This document shows positions 46,788 to 50,985 of a stretch of DNA of 64,000 nucleotides, one piece after another. Numbering within the stretch: the first letter of the stretch is position 1; each line of letters starts with the position of its first letter. Source of the DNA: Qipengyuania sp. SS22 (lineage in GTDB: Bacteria; Pseudomonadota; Alphaproteobacteria; Sphingomonadales; Sphingomonadaceae); NCBI RefSeq assembly GCF_025736935.1, contig NZ_CP107048.1:868001-932000 (forward strand). Reading direction: 5' to 3'. The position numbers were made by a program, and so were the translations under genes. The notes beneath the pieces are model-generated. The model was not told the DNA's origin. It did not search any database and saw nothing but the letters and a program-made list of their open reading frames with translations.

Positions 46788-48110
46788 ATGCCCACGCCGA
46801 TCAAGATGCCCGCCCTGTCGCCCACCATGGAGGAAGGCACACTCGCCAAATGGCTGGTGAAGCCGGGAGACAAGGTCGAGGCCGGCGATATCATGGCCGA
46901 GATCGAAACCGACAAGGCGACGATGGAATTCGAAGCGGTCGATGAAGGCACGATTGCCTCGATTGCGGTCGAAGAAGGCGCCGAGGGCGTGAAGGTCGGC
47001 ACGGTCATCGCCATGCTTGCCGAAGAGGGCGAGGATCTGGACGAAGCCGCTGCTGCTGCGCCTGCGGAGACGAAGAGCGAAGCGGAAAGCGAAACCGAAC
47101 CCACTCCCGCTCAGCCTGAAGATAAAGACGTCGTCCCAGCGCAAGCTGGGACCGCCAACGGGCCCGCTCAACCGAAAGCGACCCCAGCTTCCGCTGGGGT
47201 GACGGGCAAGGATCGCATCATCGCCTCGCCGCTCGCGCGCCGGATCGCCGAACAGAAGGGCGTGGATCTTGCGGACGTGACCGGCTCCGGCCCGCGCGGC
47301 CGGATCATCAAGGCCGATGTCGAAGGGCTCGAAGCCGGGGCAGCTCCCGCCAAAGCCGAAGCGTCTGCGCCCGCGGCCAGCGCGCCGCCCAAGCCCGCGA
47401 CGCTCGGCGGCGATCTCGATGCGCCCTATGAAGCGACCAAGCTCAACAATGTCCGCAAGGTCATCGCGCGCCGCCTGACCGAGGCCAAGCAGACGATCCC
47501 GCATATCTACCTCACCGTCGATGTCCGGCTCGATGCGCTGCTTGACCTGCGCAAGCAACTCAATGCCAGCCTCGAGGCGGACGGCGTGAAGCTGTCGGTC
47601 AACGATCTGCTGATCAAGGCGCTCGCCCGCGCGCTCCAGCGCGTTCCCGCCTGCAATGTCAGCTTCCAGGGTGACGAGCTTTACCAGTACGCCCGCGAGG
47701 ATATCTCAGTCGCAGTCGCCGCGCCCTCGGGTCTGATCACCCCGATCATCCGCGACGCGGGCAAGAAAGGCCTCGCGCAGATCAGCACCGAGATGAAGGA
47801 GCTGGCAACCAAGGCGAAGGACAACAAGCTACAGCCGCAGGAATACCAGGGCGGCACCGCCAGCCTGTCCAATCTCGGCATGTTCGGCACCAAGCAGTTC
47901 GACGCGGTGATCAACCCGCCGCAGGCGATGATCCTCGCGGTCGGCGCAGGCGAACAGCGCCCGCATGTGATCGACGGCGCGTTGGGCGTCGCCACGGTGA
48001 TGAGCGCCACCGGCAGCTTCGACCACCGCGCCATCGACGGTGCCGACGGCGCGCGACTGATGGAAGCCTTCCAGCAGCTGTGTGAAAACCCGATGGGCCT
48101 GGTGGTGTAG
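46788..48110 (+). CDS. pdhC: pyruvate dehydrogenase E2 (dihydrolipoamide acetyltransferase)
   Basis: A 440-residue E2 component that accepts the acetyl group on its lipoyl arm and passes it to CoA. One lipoyl domain (residues ~1-80) has the lipoylated Lys43 in [11 protein letters not shown]. An acidic/Ala-Pro linker follows, which here contains a 75-base palindromic element (47129-47203). The peripheral subunit-binding domain ([20 protein letters not shown]) and the catalytic domain with His413 ([11 protein letters not shown]) complete it. The downstream lpd supplies E3; E1 genes (pdhA, pdhB) are not in the window. [24 protein letters not shown] opening fixes the ATG. Confidence 0.95.
47129..47203. 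repeat. in-frame inverted-repeat element inside pdhC
   Basis: Two ~25-base units in inverted orientation: gtcccagc-gcaa-gctgggac (47133-47152) and accccagc-ttcc-gctggggt (47181-47200), each an 8-bp perfect stem-loop and each flanked by matching cgtc/gacg ends. Together they span 75 bases, a multiple of three, so the E2 reading frame is kept. The translation contains VVPAQAG and PASAGVT, the peptides typical of this repeat family. It falls in the flexible linker. Confidence 0.75.
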
Positions 48111-48114
48111 TTGG

Positions 48115-48534
48115 ATGCATGAGGGACGCACCTTCTTGGCTGCTGTCGTGGCCGGGAGTGTAGCTGCGGGAGTCGCGCTTGCGGCTTTCAATGCAATTGA
48201 TGCGGATCACGGAGCGGCAAATGCCGTATGGGACTTCATCAAGGAGAGCTTCGCGGCTTCATTTTTCGCGTTTCCATTCGTAGCCTTCGCAGGTGTGCTG
48301 ATTGCTTTGCCAATAGCTCTATTGTTGAGACGGCTACGCATTACCTCGCTGTCGGCTTGGCTACTGGTTGGTTTCGTTTCGGGCGGAACTGTGGGCGCAG
48401 CCTTCTTGCCGGCATCCTTCTACCATGCACCATTTGGTTTTGTGACTTGTGCGGTGTCGGGTCTGGCCGCGGTCGCAGTCTGGTGGTTTCTTGCCGAGCA
48501 GCGTGTAACTAATGGTTCAGAAGAACATGACTGA
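48115..48534 (+). CDS. hypothetical integral membrane protein, lower GC
   Basis: A 139-residue protein with about four hydrophobic segments (FLAAVVAGSVAAGVALAAF, FFAFPFVAFAGVLIALPIAL, SAWLLVGFVSGGTVGAAFL, FGFVTCAVSGLAAVAVWWF) and a short polar C-terminus. No family is recognised. Base composition over much of the gene is near 52-53% GC by hand count, clearly below its neighbours, and it uses codons such as TTG and ATA more freely, a sign of foreign or recent origin. It starts five bases after the pdhC stop and its end overlaps the thioesterase start. Confidence 0.65.
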   Translation: MHEGRTFLAAVVAGSVAAGVALAAFNAIDADHGAANAVWDFIKESFAASFFAFPFVAFAGVLIALPIALLLRRLRITSLSAWLLVGFVSGGTVGAAFLPASFYHAPFGFVTCAVSGLAAVAVWWFLAEQRVTNGSEEHD

Positions 48535-48904
48535 TCGCTCCCCCCTCATCCGGGTCACGGCCATGCCGACCGACCTCAATCCCTATGGCGGGGTATTCGG
48601 CGGGTGGCTGATGAGTCAGATGGCGCTCGGCGCCGGTTCGCTCGCAAGCCGCGAGGGGCAGGGCAAGGCGGTGGTCGTCTCGGCAACCGATTTCGCCTTT
48701 CCCGGTGCGATGCGGGTGGGTGACGAGCTGTCGGTCTATTGCGATATCGCCGCGACCGGTAACACCTCGCTCACCATCACCGCCGAAGCCATCGCCCGCG
48801 AGCGCAATGGCGAAGCCGAAACCAAGGTCGCGCAAGGCACGTTCAAATTCGTCCTGCTCGACGAAAACGACCGTCCGCGCGCGGTGGCGGAGCGGTGGGC
48901 TTGA
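48527..48904 (+). CDS. acyl-CoA thioesterase, hotdog fold (YciA-like)
   Basis: A ~125-residue single hotdog domain. NPYGGVFGGWLMSQMALGAG near the N-terminus is the YciA/BACH-type catalytic segment (Asn/Asp and Gly-rich helix start), and VVVSATDFAFPGAMRVGDEL and LTITAEAIARERNGE match the family strands. It hydrolyses short-to-long acyl-CoA. ATG at 48527 is preferred; ATG 48512 is in frame upstream. It overlaps the end of the low-GC membrane gene and is followed immediately by the repeat-flanked DUF559 gene. Confidence 0.85.
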   Translation: MTDRSPLIRVTAMPTDLNPYGGVFGGWLMSQMALGAGSLASREGQGKAVVVSATDFAFPGAMRVGDELSVYCDIAATGNTSLTITAEAIARERNGEAETKVAQGTFKFVLLDENDRPRAVAERWA

Positions 48905-48909
48905 TAGGA

Positions 48910-49398
48910 ATGTCGCAGCCCCCTCTCCCCGACCCTCTCCCGCAAGGGGAGAGGGGGATGGTGAACTCCTCTCCCCCTGCGGGAGAGGAAGGGGCCCGCC
49001 GCGCAGCGGTGGGAAGGAGAGGGGGCAAGCGCGACCTCCTTCCTCTCGCCAAACGAATGCGCCGCGCGCCGACCGAAGCGGAAACCCGCCTGTGGTCGAT
49101 CCTCCGCGCTAGCAGAATGGATGGCGCCAAATTCAAGCGGCAGGAGCAGATCGGCGACTACATCGTCGACTTCGTGTGCTTTGCCGAGCGGCTGATCGTC
49201 GAAGCGGACGGGTCGCAGCATGTCGAGAACGCCGCGGATCAGGCGCGCGATTCCTGGCTCAAATCGCAAGGCTTTCGGATCCTGCGGTTCTGGAATGACG
49301 ATATCCTGCGCGACACCGATGCGGTGGGCGACTCCATCCATGCTGCGCTTCGGCCCCCTCTCCCCAACCCCTCTCCCGCGAGGGGAGAGGGGCTGTGA
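48910..49398 (+). CDS. DUF559 (Vsr-like) endonuclease-domain protein, repeat-derived ends
   Basis: The core (residues ~45-150) is a DUF559 domain: LLPLAKRMRRAPTEAETRLW, KFKRQEQIGDYIVDFVC, then LIVEADGSQH and GFRILRFWNDDIL. The Asp of VDFV and the Glu/Asp of VEADG fit a Vsr/type II restriction-nuclease active site. Both ends of the frame are translations of palindromic repeats (PPLPDPLPQGER at the start, RPPLPNPSPARGEG at the end). The start is uncertain: ATG 48910, ATG 48958 or GTG 48961; homology to the family begins only near 49040. Function of stand-alone DUF559 proteins is not established. It separates the thioesterase from lpd. Confidence 0.75.
   Translation: MSQPPLPDPLPQGERGMVNSSPPAGEEGARRAAVGRRGGKRDLLPLAKRMRRAPTEAETRLWSILRASRMDGAKFKRQEQIGDYIVDFVCFAERLIVEADGSQHVENAADQARDSWLKSQGFRILRFWNDDILRDTDAVGDSIHAALRPPLPNPSPARGEGL
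48917..48957. repeat. palindromic repeat, left copy flanking DUF559 gene
   Basis: A GC-rich unit made of cccctctcccc, a short spacer and ctctcccgcaaggggagag (perfect 7-bp arms). It is nearly identical, in the same orientation, to the unit at 49353-49395 on the other side of the DUF559 gene. A third, partial palindrome of the same flavour (ctctccccctgcgggagag, 48969-48987) lies just inside. Confidence 0.8.
49353..49395. repeat. palindromic repeat, right copy flanking DUF559 gene
   Basis: The unit reads cccctctccccaacc followed by ctctcccgcgaggggagag, differing from the left copy at only a few positions. It encodes the C-terminal PLPNPSPARGEG of the DUF559 frame and contributes its stop just downstream. 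The two copies are direct repeats about 435 bases apart. Confidence 0.8.
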
Positions 49399-49569: not shown

Positions 49570-50985
49570 ATGGCTGACACCAATTACGACGTCATCGTGC
49601 TCGGCAGCGGCCCGGGCGGCTATGTCGCTGCGATCCGCTGCGCGCAGCTGGGGCTCAAGACCGCCATCGTCGAGCGCGAACTGCTCGGCGGCATCTGCCT
49701 CAACTGGGGCTGCATCCCGACCAAGGCGCTGCTGCGCTCGGCGGAGATCCTGCATTATGCGCAGCACGCCAAGGATTACGGGCTCAAAATCGCGGGCGCG
49801 ATCGAGGCCGATCTCGAAGCGGTGGTGAAGCGCAGCCGCGGGGTGGCGAAACAGCTCAACCAGGGCGTCACGCATCTGATGAAGAAGAACAAGATCGCGG
49901 TGCACATGGGCGAGGGCACGCTGACCGGCCCCACCAGCCTGACCGTGAAAGGCGAGAAGGGCGAGGAGAAGCTCACCGCCAAGCATGTGATCGTCGCCAC
50001 CGGCGCACGCGCACGCGACCTGCCCTTCGCGCCTGCCGACGGCAAGCGCGTGTGGACCTATCGCCACGCGATGACGCCCAAGGAAATGCCGAAGAAGCTG
50101 CTGGTCATCGGCAGCGGCGCGATCGGGATCGAGTTCGCCAGCTTCTACAACGACATGGGCGTCGATGTGACCGTGGTCGAAATGCTCGACCGCGTGGTGC
50201 CGGTGGAGGACAAGGACGTCTCCGCCTTCCTCGAAAAGAGCCTCACCAAGCAGGGCATGACGATCATGACCGGCGCGGGTGTCGAGGACCTCAAGGTCAC
50301 CGCCAAGGGCGTGAAGGCCAAGATCAAGGACAGCAAGGGCAAGGTCAGCGAGACCGAATTCAGCCATTGCATCACTGCGATCGGCATCGTCCCCAACACC
50401 GAAAATGTGGGGCTGGAAAAGCTGGCCGATATGGACCGCGGCTTCATCCAGATCGACGATTACGGGCGCACCAAGTCCAAGGGCCTGTGGGCCATCGGCG
50501 ACTGCACGCCGGGCCCGTGGCTGGCGCATAAGGCAAGCCATGAAGGTGTCACCACCGCCGAGGCCATCGCCAAGGAGCTGGGCAATAAGGATGTCCACCC
50601 GCACCCGCTCGACCGCGCCAACATCCCGGGCTGCACCTATTGCCACCCGCAGATCGCCAGCGTCGGCCTGACCGAGGCCAAGGCGAAGGAGGCCGGCCAT
50701 GAAGTCAAGGCGGGGACCTTCCCCTTCATCGGCAATGGCAAGGCGATCGCGCTGGGCGAGGCCGACGGCTTCGTGAAGACCGTGTTCGATGCCAAGACCG
50801 GCGAGCTGCTCGGCGCCCATATGGTCGGCGCCGAGGTGACCGAGATGATCCAGGGCTTCGTCGTCGGCAAGACGCTTGAAACGACCGAGGCCGAGCTGAT
50901 GCAGACCATCTTCCCGCATCCGACGATCAGCGAATCGATGCATGAAAGCGTGCTTGCGAGCTATGGGCGCGCGCTCCATATCTGA
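49570..50985 (+). CDS. lpd: dihydrolipoamide dehydrogenase (E3)
   Basis: A 471-residue FAD/NAD disulfide oxidoreductase that reoxidises the lipoyl arm of E2. FAD-binding VIVLGSGPGGYVAA opens the protein; the redox disulfide is Cys43-Cys48 (GGICLNWGC); a second dinucleotide site is VIGSGAIGIEFASFY; GLWAIGDCTPGPWLAHKA binds FAD; the C-terminal interface has the catalytic His near 450 (HPTISESMHE). It lies ~1.5 kb after pdhC; ~170 bases precede it, presumably with its own promoter. ATG at 49570 begins the conserved N-terminus. Confidence 0.96.
   Translation: MADTNYDVIVLGSGPGGYVAAIRCAQLGLKTAIVERELLGGICLNWGCIPTKALLRSAEILHYAQHAKDYGLKIAGAIEADLEAVVKRSRGVAKQLNQGVTHLMKKNKIAVHMGEGTLTGPTSLTVKGEKGEEKLTAKHVIVATGARARDLPFAPADGKRVWTYRHAMTPKEMPKKLLVIGSGAIGIEFASFYNDMGVDVTVVEMLDRVVPVEDKDVSAFLEKSLTKQGMTIMTGAGVEDLKVTAKGVKAKIKDSKGKVSETEFSHCITAIGIVPNTENVGLEKLADMDRGFIQIDDYGRTKSKGLWAIGDCTPGPWLAHKASHEGVTTAEAIAKELGNKDVHPHPLDRANIPGCTYCHPQIASVGLTEAKAKEAGHEVKAGTFPFIGNGKAIALGEADGFVKTVFDAKTGELLGAHMVGAEVTEMIQGFVVGKTLETTEAELMQTIFPHPTISESMHESVLASYGRALHI

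Follow-up and report, generated by a model that had tools for sequence, protein, structure and literature searches.

How does a nuclease gene come to lie among palindromic repeats that encode its own termini, and do gene and repeats belong together? The question is raised by the window considered here, the whole stretch of 64,000 nucleotides from Qipengyuania sp. SS22 that was analysed, in which a gene with a DUF559 domain lies between a thioesterase gene and lpd. The original prediction was that this gene and two flanking repeats form a mobile module resembling the pairing of REP sequences with RAYT proteins. The DUF559 family is placed among the Vsr-like PD-(D/E)XK nucleases in the available text of PMC12907096.

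The DUF559 Locus and Its Hairpin Units

The locus comprises the following features.

48512..48904, + strand: thioesterase gene, upstream of the insertion (Pfam domain search)
48910..49398, + strand: DUF559 nuclease reading frame with an ATG start, its ends encoded by hairpin units
48917..48957, no strand assigned: probable spare right-type hairpin unit outside the element, in the same orientation as the right end
48964..49024, no strand assigned: probable left end of the element, with a hairpin at 48967-48989, a second hairpin at about 48995-49013 and then a G-rich tail
49045..49350, + strand: DUF559 domain, E/D/E/H residues intact
49353..49395, no strand assigned: probable right end of the element, a hairpin unit by alignment and folding
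49570..50985, + strand: lpd, downstream of the insertion (Pfam Pyr_redox domains; gene name from context)

The identity of the gene was borne out by the profile PF04480 (DUF559), which matched residues 51-152 of the frame 48895-49395, taken from a possible alternative GTG start at 48895, with 132.2 bits against a curated cut-off of 20.6. The protein also matches PDB 3hrl, which we take to be a Neisseria homolog, with an E value of 1.9e-27. Searches for known families yielded little: 16 loci matched no Rfam family, PADLOC gave no match, and PHROGs gave one weak match, of unknown function.

Alignment agrees with the prediction in placing two nearly identical units of the same orientation at 48917-48957 and 49353-49395, and these repeats do supply the first and last residues of the frame. 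As a description of what flanks the gene the pair was correct and incomplete, since a third unit, at 48964-49024, sits between the outer unit and the DUF559 domain and is likely to be the left end. Its hairpin core agrees with the reverse-complemented right-end hairpin in 19 of 21 bases, and the same left unit precedes the DUF559 genes of loci L014-L017, L019-L023 and L025. The left, right and spare units each fold alone into hairpins, with 14, 11 and 1 of 200 shuffled sequences, respectively, folding equally well. Allowing up to three mismatches, CCCTCTCCCNNNNGGGGAGAGGG has 6 matches in the window (3 sites, each on both strands) where 0.02 are expected; the whole 2.68 Mb genome carries six sites, three of them in the window, two together inside valS and one with 3 mismatches, against a single site for the reversed control.

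To compare loci, the 250 nt preceding the domain were aligned locally with the reverse-complemented 250 nt following it, and the best match was taken as the pairing score. For the window this inverted score is only 32, against 62 for the direct match to the outer unit, and the assignment of ends therefore rests on relatives. In three further genomes (L014, L017 and L021), where the gene occupies the same site, the right end repeats this left end in inverted orientation and the inverted scores are 108, 103 and 99. On that basis 48964-49024 is likely to be the left end, 49353-49395 the right end and 48917-48957 a spare right-type end.

Pairing of Units with DUF559 Genes

Some PF04480 hit occurs in all 60 genomes examined from the genus, and the 54 hits of at least 79 bits, here called strong, are found in 29 of the 60, with 0-4 copies per genome. 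Matching palindromic units on both sides, taken as a pairing score of at least 30, a threshold chosen after the genus distribution had been seen, are present at 48 of these 54 loci. The same score was reached by 1 of 18 weak resident paralogs (L076, with a different repeat type) and by 2 of 1080 random intervals; the resident set omits a second hit at L030 (score 16), by a coordinate rule, and a broken copy, L082 (score 19). The expected co-occurrence of both units with DUF559 copies was thus found at most loci. It broke down in part at six (L015, L016, L019, L020, L022 and L025), all in the gap between pdhC and the thioesterase gene, where the left unit is kept and the right unit is absent.

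Similar pairing extends beyond the genus. All eight DUF559 loci fetched from another genus of the family (G071) score at least 30, as do 18 of 29 loci at class level (control, 2/580), 16 of 27 at phylum level (control, 9/540) and 33 of 80 named loci (control, 1/400), the other 47 named loci falling below 30; the class, phylum and named sets consist of the best matches returned, without random sampling. A palindrome matches itself both ways and direct matches were therefore scored as well. Among loci scoring at least 30, the inverted match beats the direct one at 38/48 in the genus, 5/8 in G071, 11/18 at class level, 5/16 at phylum level and 20/33 of the named loci, and the direct match prevails at 10/48, 3/8, 7/18, 11/16 and 13/33, respectively; the direct-match genus loci include the window and all six carB copies. 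Given this symmetry, the loci with the better direct match do not demonstrate strict terminal inverted repeats. Matching units on both sides thus hold widely, and inverted ends for most genus loci.

Named loci with strong pairing scores include those of the S. meliloti pSymB replicon (208), a Deinococcus plasmid (97), Azospirillum lipoferum (47) and Sphingomonas parapaucimobilis, where the order is sufB-DUF559-sufC (44). The loci of Neisseria gonorrhoeae (20) and E. coli (18) have no pair and show, by eye, end-like remnants on one side; the N. gonorrhoeae locus (L374) has a left-end-like unit upstream of, and near, its DUF559 gene. The solved structure 3hrl may derive from such a decayed element. 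At L239, L258, L313 and L375 the inverted DUF559 flanks are very long (scores 76-227) and contain several nested palindromes, as if elements had been inserted into one another. For a DUF559 locus of the Lysobacterales (L209) the best inverted match is a tandem repeat of the GGGAATA type and no hairpin unit.

The link is also seen at the level of whole genomes. Among 240 class genomes searched for the hairpin pattern CCCTCTCCCN{2,8}GGGAGAGGG, 36 were hairpin-rich, with at least 5 copies, and strong DUF559 genes occur in 31 of these against 57 of the 240 overall, five hairpin-rich genomes having none. When each family is represented by one genome, strong DUF559 genes are present in 22 of 23 with at least 3 hairpin copies, against 35/138; all these counts concern one end family and are raw as to GC content and genome size. 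Both comparisons, of loci with random intervals and of hairpin-rich genomes with the full set of 240, show that the repeats are distributed non-randomly relative to DUF559, as the module idea had supposed.

The DUF559 genes lie, by eye, mostly between genes and in the same direction as their neighbours, and many genomes of the genus have them at identical junctions. Insertion sites were named from the translated flanks (trpB-trpA, recN-ligA, carB, pntA-pntB, sufB-sufC, tolQ-tolR, cysS and valS), some of the suf genes being annotated. Searches of phage records (3/50,697) and of a plasmid collection (44/72,556, some of them chromosome-sized) yielded few matches.

The simplest alternative is coincidence, whereby REP-like repeats and DUF559 genes would accumulate independently in the same junctions. 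It can draw on the observation, made by eye, that both often adjoin stop codons, and on a tolQ-tolR junction in one genome (G416) that carries a CGTC-like pair where others hold a hairpin element. It is nevertheless very unlikely, given that the random and resident controls are near zero, that the units within a locus match one another and differ between loci, and that the units co-vary with the protein, as described below.

Occupied, Gene-Less and Empty Sites

Homologous sites lacking the insert confirm that the DUF559 gene is an insertion between the thioesterase gene and lpd. Among 30 lpd loci found in the 60 genomes and scanned for hairpins within 1100 nt, the site is full in G000 and G008, holds one unit alone, of the spare right type, in G023 and G024, and has no unit within that distance in G007, G018 and most others. 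Empty and one-unit sites are therefore both present in close relatives, as had been anticipated. L157, L164 and L167 have units before the thioesterase gene, and these three together with L165 have DUF559 in that gap; L147 is interrupted by a contig end. A tree of lpd nests G023, G007 and G024 within the full-element lineage, with weak support for the order among these three (0.355), a placement that fits loss of the gene between direct unit copies followed by loss of the last unit.

Gene-less copies are evident at other sites. At valS, represented by 30 loci from the 60 genomes, seven have in-frame inserts that lack the gene, measure about 120-130 nt and fall, by eye, into three end families, one carries a full in-frame DUF559 element (G041), one a single hairpin (G047) and 21 are empty. 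In the window's own genome, valS (L010, 3353-3475) carries two hairpin units on an in-frame insertion of some 120 bp.

G071 carries 47 units of one end family, against none for the reversed control and 0-4 in six other genomes. Nine convergent pairs of units start 59-68 nt apart and constitute gene-less elements of about 123-134 bp, a length that counts 16 nt on each side; two further convergent pairs enclose DUF559, a divergent orientation is seen in one close pair and a tandem one in three neighbours. At tolQ-tolR, compared in 12 genomes, gene-less elements are found in G071, G522 and G504, the last from another end family, and 8 of the 12 have no insert. In G416 (L350) a CGTC-like pair occupies the stop-start junction that hairpin elements use elsewhere, such that two repeat classes use one tolQ-tolR site.

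No convincing target-site duplication was detected by permutation, though single junctions looked suggestive by eye: 340 of 5000 permutations reach the observed value for 118 loci, and 210 of 5000 in a 90-locus set. At trpB-trpA the exact element boundaries could not be placed, the spacers being too divergent.

Co-Variation of Ends and Enzyme

The ends diverge together with the protein. For 24 representatives of one family, one chosen per site clade, similarity of the proteins correlates with similarity of the left ends (rho 0.55), a value attained in none of 5000 permutations. A protein tree, built on few columns, resolves a separate clade for each of trpB-trpA, recN-ligA and carB, unites the copies at thioesterase-lpd with those at pdhC-thioesterase in a single clade, and divides the pntA-pntB copies between two. 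The copies at a given genus site thus mostly belong to a single protein clade, which makes most copies look vertically inherited and not freshly moved. A comparison of 20 loci, moreover, revealed no recent duplicate; the two most similar gene pairs within a genome share 81% and 79% identity.

This clade structure is what a homing-type selfish nuclease might leave behind. On that explanation DUF559 would cut the uninterrupted junction, homologous recombination would copy the gene in and the hairpins would serve as borders or insulators. The nuclease gene does stand alone, and the filling of the same junctions in many genomes would be in keeping with homing. Homing enzymes of the EDxHD type are related to Vsr. 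They share restriction-enzyme-like chemistry, according to the available text of PMC3943268. Since the sites are conserved and site-specific clades persist, homing is kept under consideration as an alternative that we regard as unlikely; against it, gene-less end copies occur at many sites, the ends co-vary with the nuclease across sites, and a single site can be filled by different end families, as at valS and tolQ-tolR.

The E/D/E/H residues, which we take to be catalytic, are conserved in 54/54 element-type genes of the genus and in 29/29, 20/20 and 27/27 loci of the other sets. None of the 18 residents keeps the first E or the H; 12 retain the D and 6 the second E. These unit-less paralogs have thus lost residues that are probably catalytic, as would be expected if nuclease activity mattered only inside the element. 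The argument that relatives without repeats would speak against a module has therefore to be qualified: such DUF559 genes exist, and those residents are without the active-site residues. They include a suf type (L002, L042 and L068-L076) as well as L003, which adjoins cysS, and L077-L081. The suf-type residents cluster on a long branch with the suf-site copies L030 and L050, and residents have the appearance of element genes that were domesticated and no longer act as nucleases.

Selection on the element-type genes is purifying, with dN/dS of 0.04-0.23 in 16 of 18 chosen within-site pairs and of 0.41 and 0.55 in the two others, which have low dS. It would be compatible with a further alternative, a housekeeping Vsr-like repair nuclease under host selection whose hairpins stabilise or terminate transcripts in operons. 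We consider this quite improbable, given the variable number of strong copies and their presence in 29 of 60 genomes, the existence of gene-less versions, and resident paralogs that lack both the units and the catalytic residues. The co-directional placement of most genes would nonetheless suit a host function, as would a precedent in the available text of PMC12907096, the sole functional lead found, namely that Caulobacter VsrA, a DUF559 protein, is required for a DNA-damage response when a cytosine methylase is lost.

Comparison with Known Systems

The elements resemble REP/REPIN systems with RAYT, and TIRtrons, in having palindromic units, gene-less inverted dimers, solo units, a gene between matching units and repeats within coding genes. 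Gene-less inverted pairs of the REPtron type are represented by the nine convergent pairs of G071 and by the valS inserts. In contrast to the HUH Y1 transposase of the RAYT systems, the enzyme in the window is a DUF559 nuclease. The supposed likeness to REP/RAYT with another enzyme family consequently stood as regards the gene-less pairs and the enzyme, which is DUF559 and not PF01797, and did not extend to the REP foot tag, GTAG/CTAC being absent from the three window units and from 24 left ends. PF01797 (Y1/HUH), the one transposase profile checked, has no match in G000; overall it is missing from 68 of 76 genomes and present in 8, including G071, where the match is split into adjacent pieces of 92 and 22 bits. 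RAYT/IS200 was accordingly rejected as the source of the repeats in the window's genome, and may still be a candidate source in G071.

RIME1 of rhizobia is, we presume, a possibly related repeat. In the available text of PMC3733652, GTAG REPs pair with RAYTs, CGTC REPs are without a dedicated transposase, and both sometimes lie inside genes. The window-type elements share with these CGTC REPs, and with Rickettsia palindromic elements, a frequent occurrence in Alphaproteobacteria and the capacity to lie in frame within genes, including those of tRNA synthetases. They differ from CGTC REPs in consisting of C/T-rich hairpins with a G-rich tail and in carrying a nuclease gene; CGTC/GACG was found in none of the three window units and inside 6 of 24 left ends. 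A separate palindromic pair in the window, at 47129-47204, lies in frame in the E2 gene (pdhC), reads VVPAQAGT...PASAGVTG, and is called CGTC-like from its resemblance to the repeats of PMC3733652.

Inverted end units at most genus loci and gene-less derivatives are also reminiscent of MITEs and small insertion sequences, from which the elements differ in that their sole gene encodes a DUF559 nuclease and that no clear target-site duplication is seen. Unlike Vsr, the EDxHD homing endonucleases and Caulobacter VsrA, the window-type gene is tied to hairpin units of its own. We found no literature linking DUF559 or Vsr-like nucleases with palindromic repeats or transposons, in a search that covered mainly papers outside subscription journals.

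A Proposed Selfish Hairpin Element

Units and gene co-occur, the units diverge with the nuclease, gene-less copies share the ends and the sites are polymorphic. We think it probable that 48964-49395, about 430 bp with hairpin ends and one gene, constitutes a minimal selfish element, REP/REPIN-like in organisation and behaviour, and that its Vsr-like nuclease works on the element's own hairpin ends; we infer that this action would consist in cutting or moving the units. The DUF559 nuclease would recognise the ends of its element in extruded or single-stranded form and would cut at or near the end hairpin. Host repair or recombination would then establish a copy at another site, commonly a junction between genes or an in-frame position that tolerates it. 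The enzyme would mobilise gene-less copies in trans, and host recombination between direct unit copies would delete the gene, leaving one unit.

More tentatively, DUF559 elements could constitute a bacteria-wide transposable class whose hairpin ends are moved, in cis and in trans, by a single Vsr-like nuclease, and many GC-rich palindromic repeats of the CCCTCTCCC type, in Proteobacteria and other phyla, could be their gene-less offspring, a generalisation that we put forward with some doubt.

The package of enzyme and hairpins looks like an undescribed kind of jumping element. DUF559 still bears the Pfam name "unknown function", and some bacterial genomes are rich in GC-rich palindromic repeats for which no mobilising enzyme is known. 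The unit-less paralogs, which have lost active-site residues, provide a natural experiment on the connection between the two. If it is true, the link would give these repeats an enzyme and DUF559 a substrate.
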